NCBI GenBank assembly: GCA_015063335.1 | Contig: SVUH01000002.1 | Location: 1-64,000, forward strand | Reading direction: 5' to 3' | Source of the DNA: Oscillospiraceae bacterium | Lineage (GTDB): Bacteria; Bacillota_A; Clostridia; Oscillospirales; CAG-272 | Length of the DNA: 64,000 nt | Part shown: in pieces, positions 6,250-15,246 of the stretch | Position numbering within the stretch: the first letter of the stretch is position 1 | Layout: the number at the start of each line of letters is the position of its first letter | Notes under the pieces: model-generated | Seen by the model: only the letters and a program-made list of their open reading frames with translations | What the model was told of the DNA's origin: nothing | Database searches by the model: none | Position numbers and translations under genes: made by a program

Positions 6250-6617
6250 GGGTCCGTAAAGGTTTCGACGGGGATTTTGAGGTATAATAAGCGGGTAGAG
6301 CCGGGCAATCTCTATAAAGGCCTAAATTAAAAATAAACGCTAACAATAAAACTGTAGCAATGGCTGCCTAAGGGCAGTGCCGTGGCATAAGCCACCCGTT
6401 CCTCCGAGGAGTATCGCGACCTCGGACTGAGCGTCATTTGAGCGGTGAACGTGCATCGGTGTTTCGCCATTGAACCGATCACGCAGAAAAGGGCTACCCA
6501 AGTAAGCGGCTTGTCCGTTGACGGCTTACAAGGGGAAATTTAATCAACGGAATGCACCCGGAGAAGGTTATATCAAGAGGTTTTCGGACAGGGGTTCGAC
6601 TCCCCTCGGATCCACCA
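6250..6617 (+). ncRNA. ssrA: Transfer-messenger RNA (tmRNA)
   Basis: This 368-nt one-piece tmRNA rescues stalled ribosomes with SmpB. The acceptor stem pairs GGGTCCG (6250-6256) with CGGATCC (6607-6613), followed by A and an encoded CCA ending at 6617. The T arm contains GGGGTTCGACTCCCC just before the 3' acceptor strand. The tag reading frame runs from the resume codon GCT at 6339 to TAA at 6369-6371 and encodes ANNKTVAMAA, ending in the proteolysis signal AMAA. It lies directly after smpB. Confidence 0.95.
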
Positions 6618-12279: not shown

Positions 12280-12305
12280 GGACAGTCGAGGACGCCTGTC
12301 CCTAC
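12280..12305 (-). repeat. REP-like palindrome, GTAGGGACAG family, copy 1
   Basis: On the minus strand this reads GTAG followed by the imperfect hairpin GGACAG...CTGTCC. It is an exact inverted copy of 12392-12417, with the GTAG feet facing each other. Confidence 0.8.
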
Positions 12306-12391: not shown

Positions 12392-12417
12392 GTAGGGACA
12401 GGCGTCCTCGACTGTCC
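12392..12417 (+). repeat. REP-like palindrome, GTAGGGACAG family, copy 2
   Basis: GTAG foot at 12392 followed by stem GGACAG/CTGTCC with inner CG/CG pair. All 26 bases are identical to the reverse complement of copy 1. Confidence 0.8.
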
Positions 12418-12473: not shown

Positions 12474-12686
12474 AAGCCTTCCCCAGCGGGGGAAGGGGGA
12501 CCGCTTGCGGTGGATGAGGTGTCCATGATTCAATTCATTCTTAACACCTCATCCGTCATTGACTCGCATGGGCGGCTCGTCAATGCCACCTGTCTCGCTG
12601 CGCCTCGGTCACGCTCGCGTTCTGACAACACTCACTGTTGTCATTCATTACGCTCGCGCCGCTTCGCTACCTCACAAGGGAAGGCT
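12474..12686. mobile_element. MITE-like element with AGCCTTCCC ends
   Basis: The 213-bp element has terminal inverted repeats AGCCTTCCC (12475-12483) and GGGAAGGCT (12678-12686). A hairpin CCTTCCCC/GGGGGAAGG lies at the left end. Internal inverted repeat arms are GGATGAGGTGT (12512-12522) and ACACCTCATCC (12544-12554). The layout matches a non-autonomous repeat that I recall from Clostridia, with AGCCTTCCCC arms and GGATGAGG inner arms. It has no transposase. The right half seems longer and less regular than usual. Confidence 0.6.
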
Positions 12687-12752
12687 AACGCTTACGGAAC
12701 TCTATCCGCTTTTACAACCTTACTCACTATCTCAAAACTTTATAAACAATCA

Positions 12753-12780
12753 AAGGGGCTGGCTCGTAAGAGTCAGCCCC
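12753..12780. terminator. GC-rich hairpin, terminator-like
   Basis: GGGGCTGGCTC-GTAA-GAGTCAGCCCC forms an 11-bp stem with one bulge. No T run follows on the plus strand; on the minus strand it is followed by CTTTG. It may be a decayed terminator. A second hairpin AACCCCGCC-ATAGT-GGCGGGGTT lies at 12797-12821. Confidence 0.4.
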
Positions 12781-12885
12781 ATGGTTGTATCACGAAAACC
12801 CCGCCATAGTGGCGGGGTTGAATAGAGGTTAACCGATGAGAAGAAAAAGAATAAAGGATTAAGAAGAAAGTAAAAAAGAGAGCTT

Positions 12886-12911
12886 GTAGGGACAGGCGTC
12901 CCCGACTGTCC
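12886..12911 (+). repeat. REP-like palindrome, GTAGGGACAG family, copy 3
   Basis: GTAG foot at 12886. It differs from copy 2 by one base in the loop (CCCC instead of CCTC). It forms an outward-facing pair with copy 4. Confidence 0.8.
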
Positions 12912-13023
12912 GAGAAAACAAAGGATTAAAACAGAAATATGGTTGATGGAGTATTTTTACGATGTGTGAGGCATGGGAAGAAAAATTCACACAATTGCAA
13001 AGAGAAACTTTATATCTCAATAT

Positions 13024-13049
13024 GGACAGTCGAGGACGCCTGTCCCTAC
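13024..13049 (-). repeat. REP-like palindrome, GTAGGGACAG family, copy 4
   Basis: Minus-strand copy identical to copy 1, with the GTAG foot ending at 13049. Together with copy 3 it makes a 164-bp inverted pair with outward-facing feet. Confidence 0.8.
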
Positions 13050-13171
13050 AAGTAACAACAAGACCCCAAAAGCATCCGTTTACGGATAGTAAGTAACAAT
13101 TGCGTGGCTGGCAGGCCAATAAAAGACGAACTTGTGCGCAGCCAGTATTATTAGGGCTATGCCCGAAACTG

Positions 13172-13248
13172 AAATACCCCCCGTTTCTGATATGCACCTC
13201 CAAAAGTGTCTAACTTTTGGGGTGCATATCATTCACGGGGGGATATTT
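13172..13248. repeat. 77-bp near-perfect palindrome
   Basis: Outer arms AAATACCCCCCG (13172-13183) and CGGGGGGATATTT (13236-13248) enclose inner arms 13189-13207 and 13213-13230. The inner part, read on the minus strand, contains TGCACCCCAAAAGTTAGACA, which resembles terminal repeats of IS3-family elements. It lies 14 nt past the stop of the minus-strand LRR gene, so it may serve as its terminator. Terminator and IS remnant are both possible. Confidence 0.65.
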
Positions 13249-13262
13249 ATTTATATTTTATT

Positions 13263-13928
13263 TTATAACGTTATATCTCCATCCGTGCAATGTATTGTTT
13301 TGATACTGCTGCCGTTGCCCCGCCAGTCGTATTTCGTAATTTCATTCCACTGTGCCTTGGTTCCGTTAAATCTTATGCCCCTGAGTCCGGTACAGCCCAA
13401 GAACGCAGAAGAGCCAATGCTCGTAACGCTGTTGGATATCGTAATGCTCGTAAGTCCGTTACAGCTGGAGAACGTAGAAGAGCCAATGCTCGTAACGCTG
13501 TCCGGTATTGTAATGCTCGTAAGTCCGCTACAGCCATAGAACGCAGAAGAGCCAATGCTCGTAACGCCGTTGCCTATCGTCACGTTTGTGAGCTCGGTAC
13601 AACCAGAGAACGCACGCGCACCAATGCTCGTAACGCTGTCGGGGATAGTTATGCTTTTAAGATTGATTGCTCCCGCAAAAGCTTCGTCCAATATAGTGGA
13701 AACACTCTTTTTGTTATATTCTGAAGGAATAACGATTTCTTCGAGATATTTTGCAGTGCCTGCTGATACGGCGTAGGTTTCGTCGGGGAGGGGATAAAAT
13801 TCAAGTCCTGCAGTGCCATCTTTACTCATGATGCTCGATATGCCAAAGCATGCGCTAAGGCAAGAGAGAAGCGACAGCAACACTGTGAGTGCCAAAATTA
13901 CCGAAATTGATTTTTTGAGATTTTTCAT
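13263..13928 (-). CDS. Leucine-rich repeat (BspA-like) lipoprotein
   Basis: The 221-residue protein has a lipoprotein signal peptide (KKSISVILALTVLLSLLSCL then lipobox LSAC, Cys at about residue 27). The rest includes four BspA-type LRR_5 units of 23 residues, each like LTSITIPDSVTSIGSSAF plus a GC-x-G turn (about residues 110-200). Such proteins display repeats at the cell surface for adhesion or glycan contact. The chosen start is the ATG at 13928, 7 nt after AAGGAG; the open frame continues upstream through a hairpin and is not coding there. No separate promoter is visible directly upstream; expression probably depends on the promoter at 14188-14216 and read-through of the terminator at 13970-14025. 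Confidence 0.82.
   Translation of the reverse strand: MKNLKKSISVILALTVLLSLLSCLSACFGISSIMSKDGTAGLEFYPLPDETYAVSAGTAKYLEEIVIPSEYNKKSVSTILDEAFAGAINLKSITIPDSVTSIGARAFSGCTELTNVTIGNGVTSIGSSAFYGCSGLTSITIPDSVTSIGSSTFSSCNGLTSITISNSVTSIGSSAFLGCTGLRGIRFNGTKAQWNEITKYDWRGNGSSIKTIHCTDGDITL
13395..13670. repeat. Four tandem 69-bp units inside the LRR gene
   Basis: The 23-residue LRR units are repeated at DNA level with high identity, seen as recurring GAGCCAATGCTCGTAACGC stretches 69 bp apart. Such units can change in number by slippage or recombination. Confidence 0.75.
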
Positions 13929-13969
13929 TTTCATTCTCCTTAAAATGTTTTTGTCATTTCGGTGAAAAT

Positions 13970-14025
13970 AAAAAGGTGCGACAACCAGAGTCGTTACACC
14001 GAAAAACGCAGACTCCAATTGTCGC
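13970..14025 (-). terminator. Terminator-like hairpin downstream of the rod RNA
   Basis: On the minus strand arms 14025-14011 and 13992-13978 pair at 12 of 15 positions (GCGACAA-NNN-GAGTC on both sides) and are followed by ACCTTTTT. It lies between the rod RNA and the LRR gene. Confidence 0.7.
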
Positions 14026-14181
14026 CAAACAAATCGAAATGATATGGGAATAAATCCGACATATTCAACCTTCGAGGAATTTGCATTTTTACCAAATTCA
14101 AAAAAAGTTGAGATGCCGAAAAAGGGTATAAAAGCCCAAAAGACAAAAATATCCCATTATCAAGTATTCGATTTGTTTGGC
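13970..14181 (-). ncRNA. Candidate rod-shaped structured RNA (6S-like architecture or LRR-gene leader)
   Basis: A minus-strand RNA of about 210 nt is predicted, from a start near 14181 to the U run at about 13970. Helices: P1 14181-14167 with 14038-14024 (15 bp); P2 14162-14152 with 14049-14040 (10 bp, one bulge). A large lopsided bubble follows, with a small GGG/CCC hairpin at 14137-14124. Then P3: 14118-14113 with 14062-14057, 14110-14103 with 14073-14066, and 14099-14093 with 14083-14077, loop 14092-14084. Its 5' end falls where the promoter at 14188-14216 predicts. The rod with one central bubble recalls 6S RNA, but no sequence signature was recognised. Alternatively it is a regulated leader of the LRR gene. 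Confidence 0.62.
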
Positions 14182-14187
14182 ACTCTC

Positions 14188-14216
14188 ATTATAGCACAAG
14201 TTTTGAAGTTTGTAAA
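14188..14216 (-). promoter_or_regulatory. Promoter of the rod RNA
   Basis: On the minus strand TTTACA (14216-14211) and TATAAT (14193-14188) have a 17-bp spacer ending in TGTGC (extended -10). The expected start, about 7 nt on, is 14181, exactly the outer end of helix P1. Confidence 0.78.
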
Positions 14217-14265
14217 TACGTTATTGAAAAATAAAGAATACTGCAAAGAGGCGGTGTGTAGAGAT

Positions 14266-15246
14266 TTACGTCAAAATGCCCGACAGCAGAAGGCAAGCCC
14301 CGCCCATGAGCGCGGCTTTTATTAGGTGAGCGAGGACGTAGGGCTTTATTTCAAACGGCGCGTCGGAGCACATTGAAACCGTCTGAAAATGGACGGAGAG
14401 TCCCGACCAGCCGACGGCAATTCCGCACAGCGCAAGACTCCATTCGGCGCCCATCTCTCCTATGCGGGCAACGCCCGACGTAAGCTCGAAAAAGGAGAAT
14501 ATAAGGGCGGTTGCGGTATCGGAAAGCTCAAAAAGGGAAAGCGTACTCTCGACTACTCCGAGAAACGCGCAAAAGAAAACGACGAATGCGCAGACGGACA
14601 CCATGCCTGCGGCAGCGCTTGTGACGGCGTGTGTGAAAACGCCCGCAAACCCCATTGATTTTTTGTTTTGAGGTGCGGATTGCGGTGTCGGTTCGGATTT
14701 ATCCCAAAGAGCTATTACCGCACCTATAAGCGCGGAAATTAAGATAGATAAGACGTACAACACCACTCCCACAAGGGGGGAGCCAAAGGTTTCCTTACCG
14801 ACAGCCCCGATAAGAAAGGCAGGACTTGGCGTGCTTGTTATGCATACCGCGCGCTTATATTCTGAAAAGCTTATATGCTCACTCGCATAAAGCTCACAAA
14901 GGGAGCGCGCACCTACGGGAAATCCGCAAAGCCAGCCGATAATTACAGCCCCCGTAGCGTCCTCGCCTATTTTGAATATGCGCCGAAAAAGTCTTGAAGG
15001 GAGCTTACAAAGTGCCCTTAACGCTCCGCTTTCGATGGCGATAGATGACAGCACCATAAAAGGGAAAAGCGCGGGAATGAGGCGCGTCCCGCAAAGGTAA
15101 AGTCCATTCTGTACCCAAAGAGAAGCGGCAGAAGCATTTTTGAAAAACAGAATAATGACGAAAAGGCTCATGAAGGCAAAGGCATAGCGCCGTTTTATGA
15201 CTGTTTTATGTGTGCCTTGCCGTTTCCCTGTTTCGATAAGAGTCAT
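14266..15246 (-). CDS. ylbJ: Sporulation integral membrane protein YlbJ-like (Gate domain)
   Basis: The 326-residue membrane protein has about eight hydrophobic segments and nucleoside-recognition (Gate) domain features. LIPALFPFMVLSS (about residue 57) and IGWLCGFPVGARSLCELY (about residue 103) are typical of YlbJ. In Bacillus ylbJ is a mother-cell (sigma E) gene needed for spore coat/cortex formation. Here it is divergent from the sigma-E-type pair yqfC-yqfD, which supports a sporulation role. The ATG at 15246 follows GGAGG by 7 nt. Another Gate-family transporter is possible, but location and length favour YlbJ. Confidence 0.8.
   Translation of the reverse strand: MTLIETGKRQGTHKTVIKRRYAFAFMSLFVIILFFKNASAASLWVQNGLYLCGTRLIPALFPFMVLSSIAIESGALRALCKLPSRLFRRIFKIGEDATGAVIIGWLCGFPVGARSLCELYASEHISFSEYKRAVCITSTPSPAFLIGAVGKETFGSPLVGVVLYVLSILISALIGAVIALWDKSEPTPQSAPQNKKSMGFAGVFTHAVTSAAAGMVSVCAFVVFFCAFLGVVESTLSLFELSDTATALIFSFFELTSGVARIGEMGAEWSLALCGIAVGWSGLSVHFQTVSMCSDAPFEIKPYVLAHLIKAALMGGACLLLSGILT

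Follow-up and report, generated by a model that had tools for sequence, protein, structure and literature searches.

The RNA encoded on the minus strand at 13970-14181 of the window, the 64,000-nt stretch of DNA that was analysed, appears to be one copy of a large and apparently undescribed Clostridia family of structured leader RNAs. Comparison of the copies suggests that the RNA acts in cis, setting the share of transcripts that continue past an intrinsic terminator into the gene behind it, and we give this reading a probability of about 60%. An earlier note, made from this single locus, had recognised a structured RNA and read it either as a 6S-like RNA or as a long leader controlling read-through into the LRR gene that follows. 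The structured RNA and the second reading agree with the comparative evidence, namely a terminator common to the family and a gene right after its U run. The multicopy family, a pseudoknot, an alternative hairpin and the exchange of leaders had escaped that single-locus view.

Folding of the minus strand at 13970-14181 gave a minimum free energy (MFE) of -75.8 kcal/mol, compared with -42.6 ± 4.05 kcal/mol for shuffled sequences (z -8.2; 0 of 200 shuffles as stable), and five further copies gave z values of -6.2 to -11.0. The fold reproduced the rod described before, with a 15-bp end-to-end helix, a 10-bp helix and a lopsided bubble holding a mini-hairpin. The three-part apical hairpin was also found, but with 24 pairs (8 + 9 + 7) and not the approximately 21 counted earlier. 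The proposed minus-strand promoter, TTTACA-17-TATAAT, was confirmed in the sequence, with 11 of 12 consensus matches and an expected start at 14181. Mechanically called open reading frames overlap the RNA at 14044-14325 on the plus strand and in the LRR frame, which extends upstream without a stop as far as a TTG at 14018. The features, all on the minus strand, are as follows.

14211..14216, minus strand: -35 hexamer TTTACA (sequence and promoter scan; 17-nt spacing to the -10 hexamer)
14188..14193, minus strand: -10 hexamer TATAAT, preceded by TG (sequence and promoter scan)
13970..14181, minus strand: structured leader RNA of 212 nt, from the predicted start at 14181 to the end of the U run (fold z -8.2; family alignment)
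14167..14181, minus strand: 5' arm of P1, the 15-bp closing helix (MFE fold; covaries with its partner)
14152..14162, minus strand: 5' arm of P2, partner 14040-14049 (MFE structure, coordinates counted by hand from the dot-bracket string)
14124..14137, minus strand: mini-hairpin GGG..TATACCC inside the lopsided bubble (MFE fold)
14103..14120, minus strand: 5' arm of P3, partner 14055-14073 (MFE fold, coordinates counted by hand; the P3 region coevolves, z -19.2)
14077..14099, minus strand: local apical hairpin GAATTTG-GTAAAAATG-CAAATTC (MFE fold; coevolution z -4.6)
14076..14090, minus strand: pseudoknot strand 1, apical loop and 3' stem, AAAAATGCAAATTCC (complementarity and covariation)
14024..14038, minus strand: 3' arm of P1 (MFE fold and covariation)
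14011..14025, minus strand: 5' arm of the alternative hairpin, a possible antiterminator (hairpin energies and pair counts)
14002..14016, minus strand: pseudoknot strand 2, linker GGAGTCTGCGTTTTT (complementarity and covariation)
13978..13992, minus strand: 3' arm of the alternative hairpin, common to the terminator (hairpin energies and pair counts)
13976..13999, minus strand: family terminator hairpin, with one mismatch in the window copy (hairpin energies and covariation)
13970..13974, minus strand: U run (U5) after the hairpin (sequence)
13936..13941, minus strand: ribosome-binding site AAGGAG (sequence)
13263..13928, minus strand: downstream gene with ATG at 13928, encoding a 221-aa LRR_5 (BspA-type) surface protein with a lipoprotein-like N terminus (domain match and sequence)

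A promoter scan from the U run to the LRR gene found no promoter-like site. The LRR protein matches TIGR02167, "PARCEL repeat-containing surface protein"; PARCEL repeats are called horizontally distributed in the title of a published paper (PMC2996958).

The nearest relative found is the metagenome-assembled genome (MAG) Oscillospiraceae bacterium SIG616 (G001, locus L001), in which two blocks adjoining the locus are 88.6 and 87.0% identical to the window. A DNA search of this genome for the RNA gave 15 matches at E ≤ 1, and at eight dispersed places the alignment spans promoter, rod and terminator. In the family of this relative, 144 of 295 genomes matched another copy of the RNA by BLAST (E ≤ 1e-3; two candidates only were scored in each genome). 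A covariance model built on the 68-nt 3' module matched 102 of 295 genomes sampled from the order (E ≤ 1e-3) and 75 of 291 from the class (E ≤ 1e-4); among 299 sampled from the phylum the one match was G001 itself. G001 is in every one of these sampled sets, which partly overlap. Eight genomes selected for their richness in the RNA had between 12 and 15 matches apiece at E ≤ 1e-3, and the weakest of these matches may be due to chance. Within a genome, the copies lie mostly on different contigs, with a few tandem pairs.

From the fetched loci, 176 units were excised, of which 175 had both a P1 5' partner (score at least 9 of 14) and a rightly placed -10-like hexamer, two elements that fall outside the model used to find the units. 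Because the script sought the best place, a control was needed: the lenient limits were passed at 23 of 487 control positions, and the strict limits (11 and 5) by 144 units and 0 of 487 positions. The promoter spacing was 17 in 145 of 175 units (15 to 19 being allowed and ties broken to 17), and in 83 of 100 units the -10 hexamer matched at 5 or more of its 6 positions. The 3' module is better conserved than the rod, which is 135 nt or longer in 127 of the 175 units and shorter in 48. By eye, sequence like the mini-hairpin recurs in many long-rod copies of the family alignment; when 14 short rods were folded, the lopsided bubble was small or missing and the loop strand was locally paired in most, again by eye. 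An apical GGTAAAAAYGC is conserved in the family alignment.

The homologous copies showed covariation in P1, the terminator and a 15-bp pseudoknot, which is formed by complementary sequences of the apical loop strand (AAAAAYGCAAATTCC) and of the linker that separates P1 from the terminator (GGAGTTTGCGTTTTT); the earlier note had named covariation in homologues as a check on the RNA. The pseudoknot is possible in all 38 aligned units, with an energy no weaker than -13.1 kcal/mol. When P1, pseudoknot and terminator were counted jointly, 95.3% of the cells in these 38 units were paired, compared with 89.9% after shuffling, and 17 pairs showed two-sided changes compared with 7.4; none of 500 shuffles equalled any of five measures, and sliding the partner gave at most 49.7% pairing. 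Individual copies illustrate the compensation: one base is lost on both sides in L042, A-U is replaced by U-A in L026 and by G-C in L034 and L025, and two neighbouring pairs are changed on both sides in L028. The mean pseudoknot energy was -16.4 kcal/mol for cognate strands and -14.5 kcal/mol for dealt partners (0 of 5,000 permutations). Over 159 distinct pairs, the cognate-versus-dealt z was -14.2 (-10.6 for long rods and -8.0 for short rods), a value that, like the other coevolution z values given here, is not a probability because related sequences inflate it, and the permutation tests leave the relatedness among units in place. Control pairings gave z values of +0.7, +1.8 and -1.8, the last for the reversed loop and reached by 4.4% of permutations. 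The pseudoknot had a strength of at least -10 kcal/mol in 142 of 166 units with cruder anchors and in 92 of 94 with stricter ones, and was weaker in the other 24 and 2 units, respectively.

The family terminator, GTGCG..UUCG..CGCAC followed by a U run, coevolved with a z of -23.4. An intrinsic terminator, kept by selection, thus lies between promoter and gene as in an attenuator, with its hairpin weakened in the window copy. A second hairpin, in which GCGACAATTGGAGTT is paired with the 3' arm of the terminator, excludes both the pseudoknot and the terminator, because it uses the GGAGTT common to the pseudoknot as well as that 3' arm. This alternative hairpin had 90.8% of cells paired and three pairs with two-sided changes; the five measures were reached by 1, 13, 0, 10 and 0 of 500 shuffles. 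Its coevolution z was -8.1 overall and only -2.3 in short rods, and when trimmed it reached -8 kcal/mol in 37 of 166 units. Of the 38 units, 32 formed the alternative hairpin and 6 the terminator when the 3' module was folded alone (hand count). Since the isolated module mostly folds this way, the terminator would need help, such as that of the pseudoknot. In the window copy, the alternative hairpin has -22.1 kcal/mol, the strongest of the 38, and the terminator, with its one mismatch, has -7.4 kcal/mol, the weakest; a strict terminator scan of window positions 13880-14300 found none. The window copy may therefore be largely open. The 12-of-15 hairpin with U run that had been taken for the terminator does exist (14011-14025 with 13978-13992), but it is the alternative hairpin, and the shorter one makes the better terminator in relatives. 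Judged from these comparisons, an antiterminator role of the alternative hairpin is weakly supported.

In 85 of 100 units, a simple-script ORF caller found an ORF of 40 aa or more, with a ribosome-binding-site-like stretch, after the U run. The remaining 15 had none, and one doubtful call (L043) was set aside, leaving 84 units with an ORF and 16 without a usable one, several of them at contig ends. The start codons of 54 of the 84 lie within 30 nt of the U run and those of 66 within 40 nt. Most units thus have little room for another promoter, yet the terminator is kept by selection, which is the main argument for controlled read-through. The downstream genes are very diverse (LRR_5 in 12 of the 84, zinc ribbon in 6, SHOCT in 3, AMP-binding and GDSL lipase in 2 each, and mostly single occurrences for the other Pfam families among the 25 of 54 listed), and no common pathway was seen among them, nor was a ligand suggested. 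A hydrophobic N terminus was present in 48 of the 84 proteins by a rough rule, and 22 of these 48 had a lipobox-like motif. PADLOC gave no consistent match to defence genes among the 84, with five models hit by one member each.

One group of downstream genes encodes a small Cys-rich family (..DITGIELTPG..CLGNG..ECCCDECDYL) with 721 homologues at E ≤ 1e-3. No Pfam domain was present in the 120 homologues listed of these 721, nor did two members match any NCBIfam model. Genomes hold several paralogues each; loci include L014:5922-6125, L036:1319-1486, L165, L169, L139, L133, L143 and L149. In the reverse direction, a search of nine genomes, eight of them preselected as RNA-rich, gave 22 matches to this protein family in five genomes. 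In 20 of the 22, the protein match is preceded at a distance of 19 to 34 nt by a same-strand match to the RNA (R1), which is weak or partial in two of these cases; of the other two, one had an R1 match 212 nt away and one had none.

These positions bear on whether the RNA might instead be a free-standing small RNA acting in trans, which we consider unlikely. The terminated product of about 210 nt would then bind targets or other copies through its conserved apical loop and linker, and its nearness to genes would be secondary. Such an RNA would have its own promoter and terminator and a 3' module more conserved than the rod, as seen here; the loop of one copy also pairs well with the linker of another (the mean of -14.5 kcal/mol given above), and the tandem copies L025, L114 and L179 have no ORF. 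However, the closeness of the start codons to the U run and the RNA directly upstream of 20 of 22 Cys-rich genes speak against it, since genes placed in this way appear to need read-through. After the ORF-less tandem units of L025 (the whole locus) and L179 (285-1000), about 26 nt form, by eye, a near reverse complement of the units' own linker, and L025 also has a six-codon mini-ORF, MNIPKN.

If the RNA is a cis-acting leader, RNA polymerase would start at about 14181 and the rod would fold first. The apical loop would either stay in its local hairpin or capture the linker. With the linker captured, the terminator hairpin could form and transcription would stop; with the linker free, its GGAG part would pair with the 3' arm of the terminator, so that the terminator would be lost and the gene expressed. 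A signal, be it a metabolite, a protein or an RNA, would act on the apical region. Of these steps the ON state is the least secure, because the alternative hairpin covaries weakly, and the direction of the switch could be the reverse because this hairpin ends 2 to 3 nt before the U run and might itself terminate weakly. Should this mechanism hold, many Clostridia would gate accessory and surface genes, including those for LRR surface proteins and the small Cys-rich family, with several copies of one leader RNA (about ten in rich genomes). The family would then be a widespread class of regulatory RNA with no Rfam entry and a pseudoknot switch open to testing, and natural leader swapping would mean that gene regulation is altered by replacing the whole 5' RNA.

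Rods are diverse, with a pairwise identity of 0.56 ± 0.11 in the 100-unit set and singletons making up 130 of 144 clusters at 0.8. Sixteen pairs of loci within genomes had a downstream identity of at least 0.88; in 15 of these the rods were 0.75 identical or less, and in one (G582) they were 0.99 identical. The 16 pairs come from seven genomes, with 56 to 200 nt compared, and are mutually dependent. The clearest case is that of two loci of G625, which are 0.96 identical upstream and 0.92 to 0.93 identical after the U run, whereas between these parts, starting at about the -10 box, each has a block of its own type (identities of 0.53 to 0.58 for pieces of the rod and 0.75 for the module). One of these two rods is 0.92 identical to a rod of another genome, where it also stands before a gene of the same kind. 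Between genomes, for rods of similar length, 12 rod pairs reached 0.85, and the sequences downstream were unrelated in nine, related in one (0.85) and not comparable in two; in L014 and L041, for instance, the rods are 0.97 and the genes 0.56 identical. What these data show is that leaders have been exchanged or replaced in mosaic fashion, or else that the rods of some copies change very fast, and leaders seem to have been exchanged as blocks between genes. An enforced difference between the rods of one genome was not supported: mean rod identity was 0.577 within and 0.572 between genomes, and rod pairs of at least 0.8 were, if anything, commoner within (3 of 355) than between genomes (41 of 14,870). 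It is possible, and we propose it tentatively, that control is of a plug-in kind. The common 3' module (linker and terminator) would serve as expression platform, and the rod would be an interchangeable part that acts as sensor or address, with whole leaders swapped by recombination, so that similar paralogues in one genome come under different rods and the same rod type is found on unrelated genes elsewhere.

Recombination of leaders and genes would also be expected of a mobile cassette or recombination site at the DNA level, in which the palindromic rod acts as DNA, for example as an attC-like folded single strand, and the RNA features are by-products. The outer boxes of integron attC sites are RYYYAAC and GTTRRRY. 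The leaders share with attC an imperfect palindrome, conserved ends, a variable middle and diverse adjoining genes, and their ends, GCCAAAC..GTTTGGC, resemble these boxes, but by eye each departs from the consensus at the fourth base. Window 12491-14290, a stretch containing both the LRR gene and the RNA, has no counterpart at the syntenic site of G001; a precise empty site was looked for in vain, no clean insertion point being readable because similarity stops already inside the neighbouring gene. Against a DNA cassette, the near-constant promoter spacing and the coevolving pseudoknot and terminator are features of an RNA, and copies are mostly dispersed over contigs, and we hold this explanation to be distinctly improbable. 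An origin from phages or plasmids was likewise rejected: two IUPAC patterns of the RNA had no exact match in viral_contigs, one copy (L021) had none in plasmid records, and the phage matches were isolated (one of 62 nt in an unannotated faecal "Bacteriophage sp." scaffold and a weak one of 43 nt to a Streptococcus phage, E 0.07).

As a special case of the cis-acting leader, the RNA might be a metabolite riboswitch, with the pseudoknotted core and the bubble as its aptamer. The pseudoknot adjoining the expression platform and the conserved apical motif would suit this, but rods vary down to background identity and the downstream genes have no visible pathway in common, which makes it a very doubtful proposal; a general signal, for example an ion or a stress nucleotide, could conceivably serve in such a variant. 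A 6S-like RNA mimicking an open promoter, the other reading first put forward, shares the long rod with an internal bubble but is most improbable given the many copies per genome, their fixed leader position before genes, the conserved pseudoknot and terminator, the bubble that is asymmetric and, by eye, small or missing in short-rod copies, and the lack of a match to the 6S model (RF00013) in the window or in the nearest genome, a MAG, although the same search found matches in 6 of 14 control genomes, above the cut-off in 4.

More generally, no Rfam 15 family covered the element at gathering score, either in the window or in 17 other loci, so that the suggested comparison with 6S and riboswitch models yielded no assignment. 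An E-value scan of 13900-14260 returned only a Plasmodium RUF1 match, which was dismissed as chance (18.3 bits against a cut-off of 70). The transcripts nearest in design are attenuating leaders and terminator-type riboswitches, which also have a promoter, a structured 5' leader, an intrinsic terminator and a gene with its ribosome-binding site directly 3', as well as a competing hairpin, for which the alternative hairpin is a candidate here. The leader family differs from them in its lack of a common pathway, its diverse rod, its 15-bp long-range pseudoknot, its many copies and the apparent exchange of leaders. In pT181-type plasmid attenuators, the loop of an antisense RNA pairs in trans with part of the attenuator and so leads to a terminator or an antiterminator. 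Loop pairing may decide in a similar way in the leader family, but there the loop lies in the same transcript. A limited literature search of titles and abstract openings found no description of the leader RNA, which leaves its absence from print unproven, and a term search of PMC11109978 and PMC8632094 gave no occurrence of Oscillospir, Ruminococc, Clostridia or lipoprotein. In PMC11109978, on novel noncoding RNAs in 50 bacterial genomes, a pseudoknot between a terminator hairpin and the preceding hairpin is proposed to decide termination in a folate-linked candidate motif. In that motif it is the stem-loop of the terminator itself that pairs, and the proposed effect of the pseudoknot is to keep termination from occurring, whereas in the leader family it is the linker before the terminator that pairs. 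The downstream genes differ as well, and the two are set apart here by description and not by sequence.

Away from the element, Rfam matches were a tmRNA and a permuted tmRNA in L013, Gut-1 in L028, and 5S rRNA and tRNA in L118. The Gut-1 RNA (RF01706; L028:2450-2527, minus strand) scored exactly at its gathering threshold, and the genome that holds it has copies of the leader family too; this RNA was set aside as a different element, about 700 nt away and on the other strand. The window itself has a tmRNA gene at 6250-6617 (Rfam, 155.8 bits). On the 3' side of the LRR gene, at 13177-13242, lies a 28-nt inverted repeat with a 10-nt gap and 82% complementarity, which could be a terminator or an IS remnant. 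A palindromic repeat, GTAGGGACAGGCGTCC, occurs in four exact copies on both strands, at 12290-12305, 12392-12407, 12886-12901 and 13034-13049, where none would be expected by chance, and similar repeats were seen by eye in loci of the relative.
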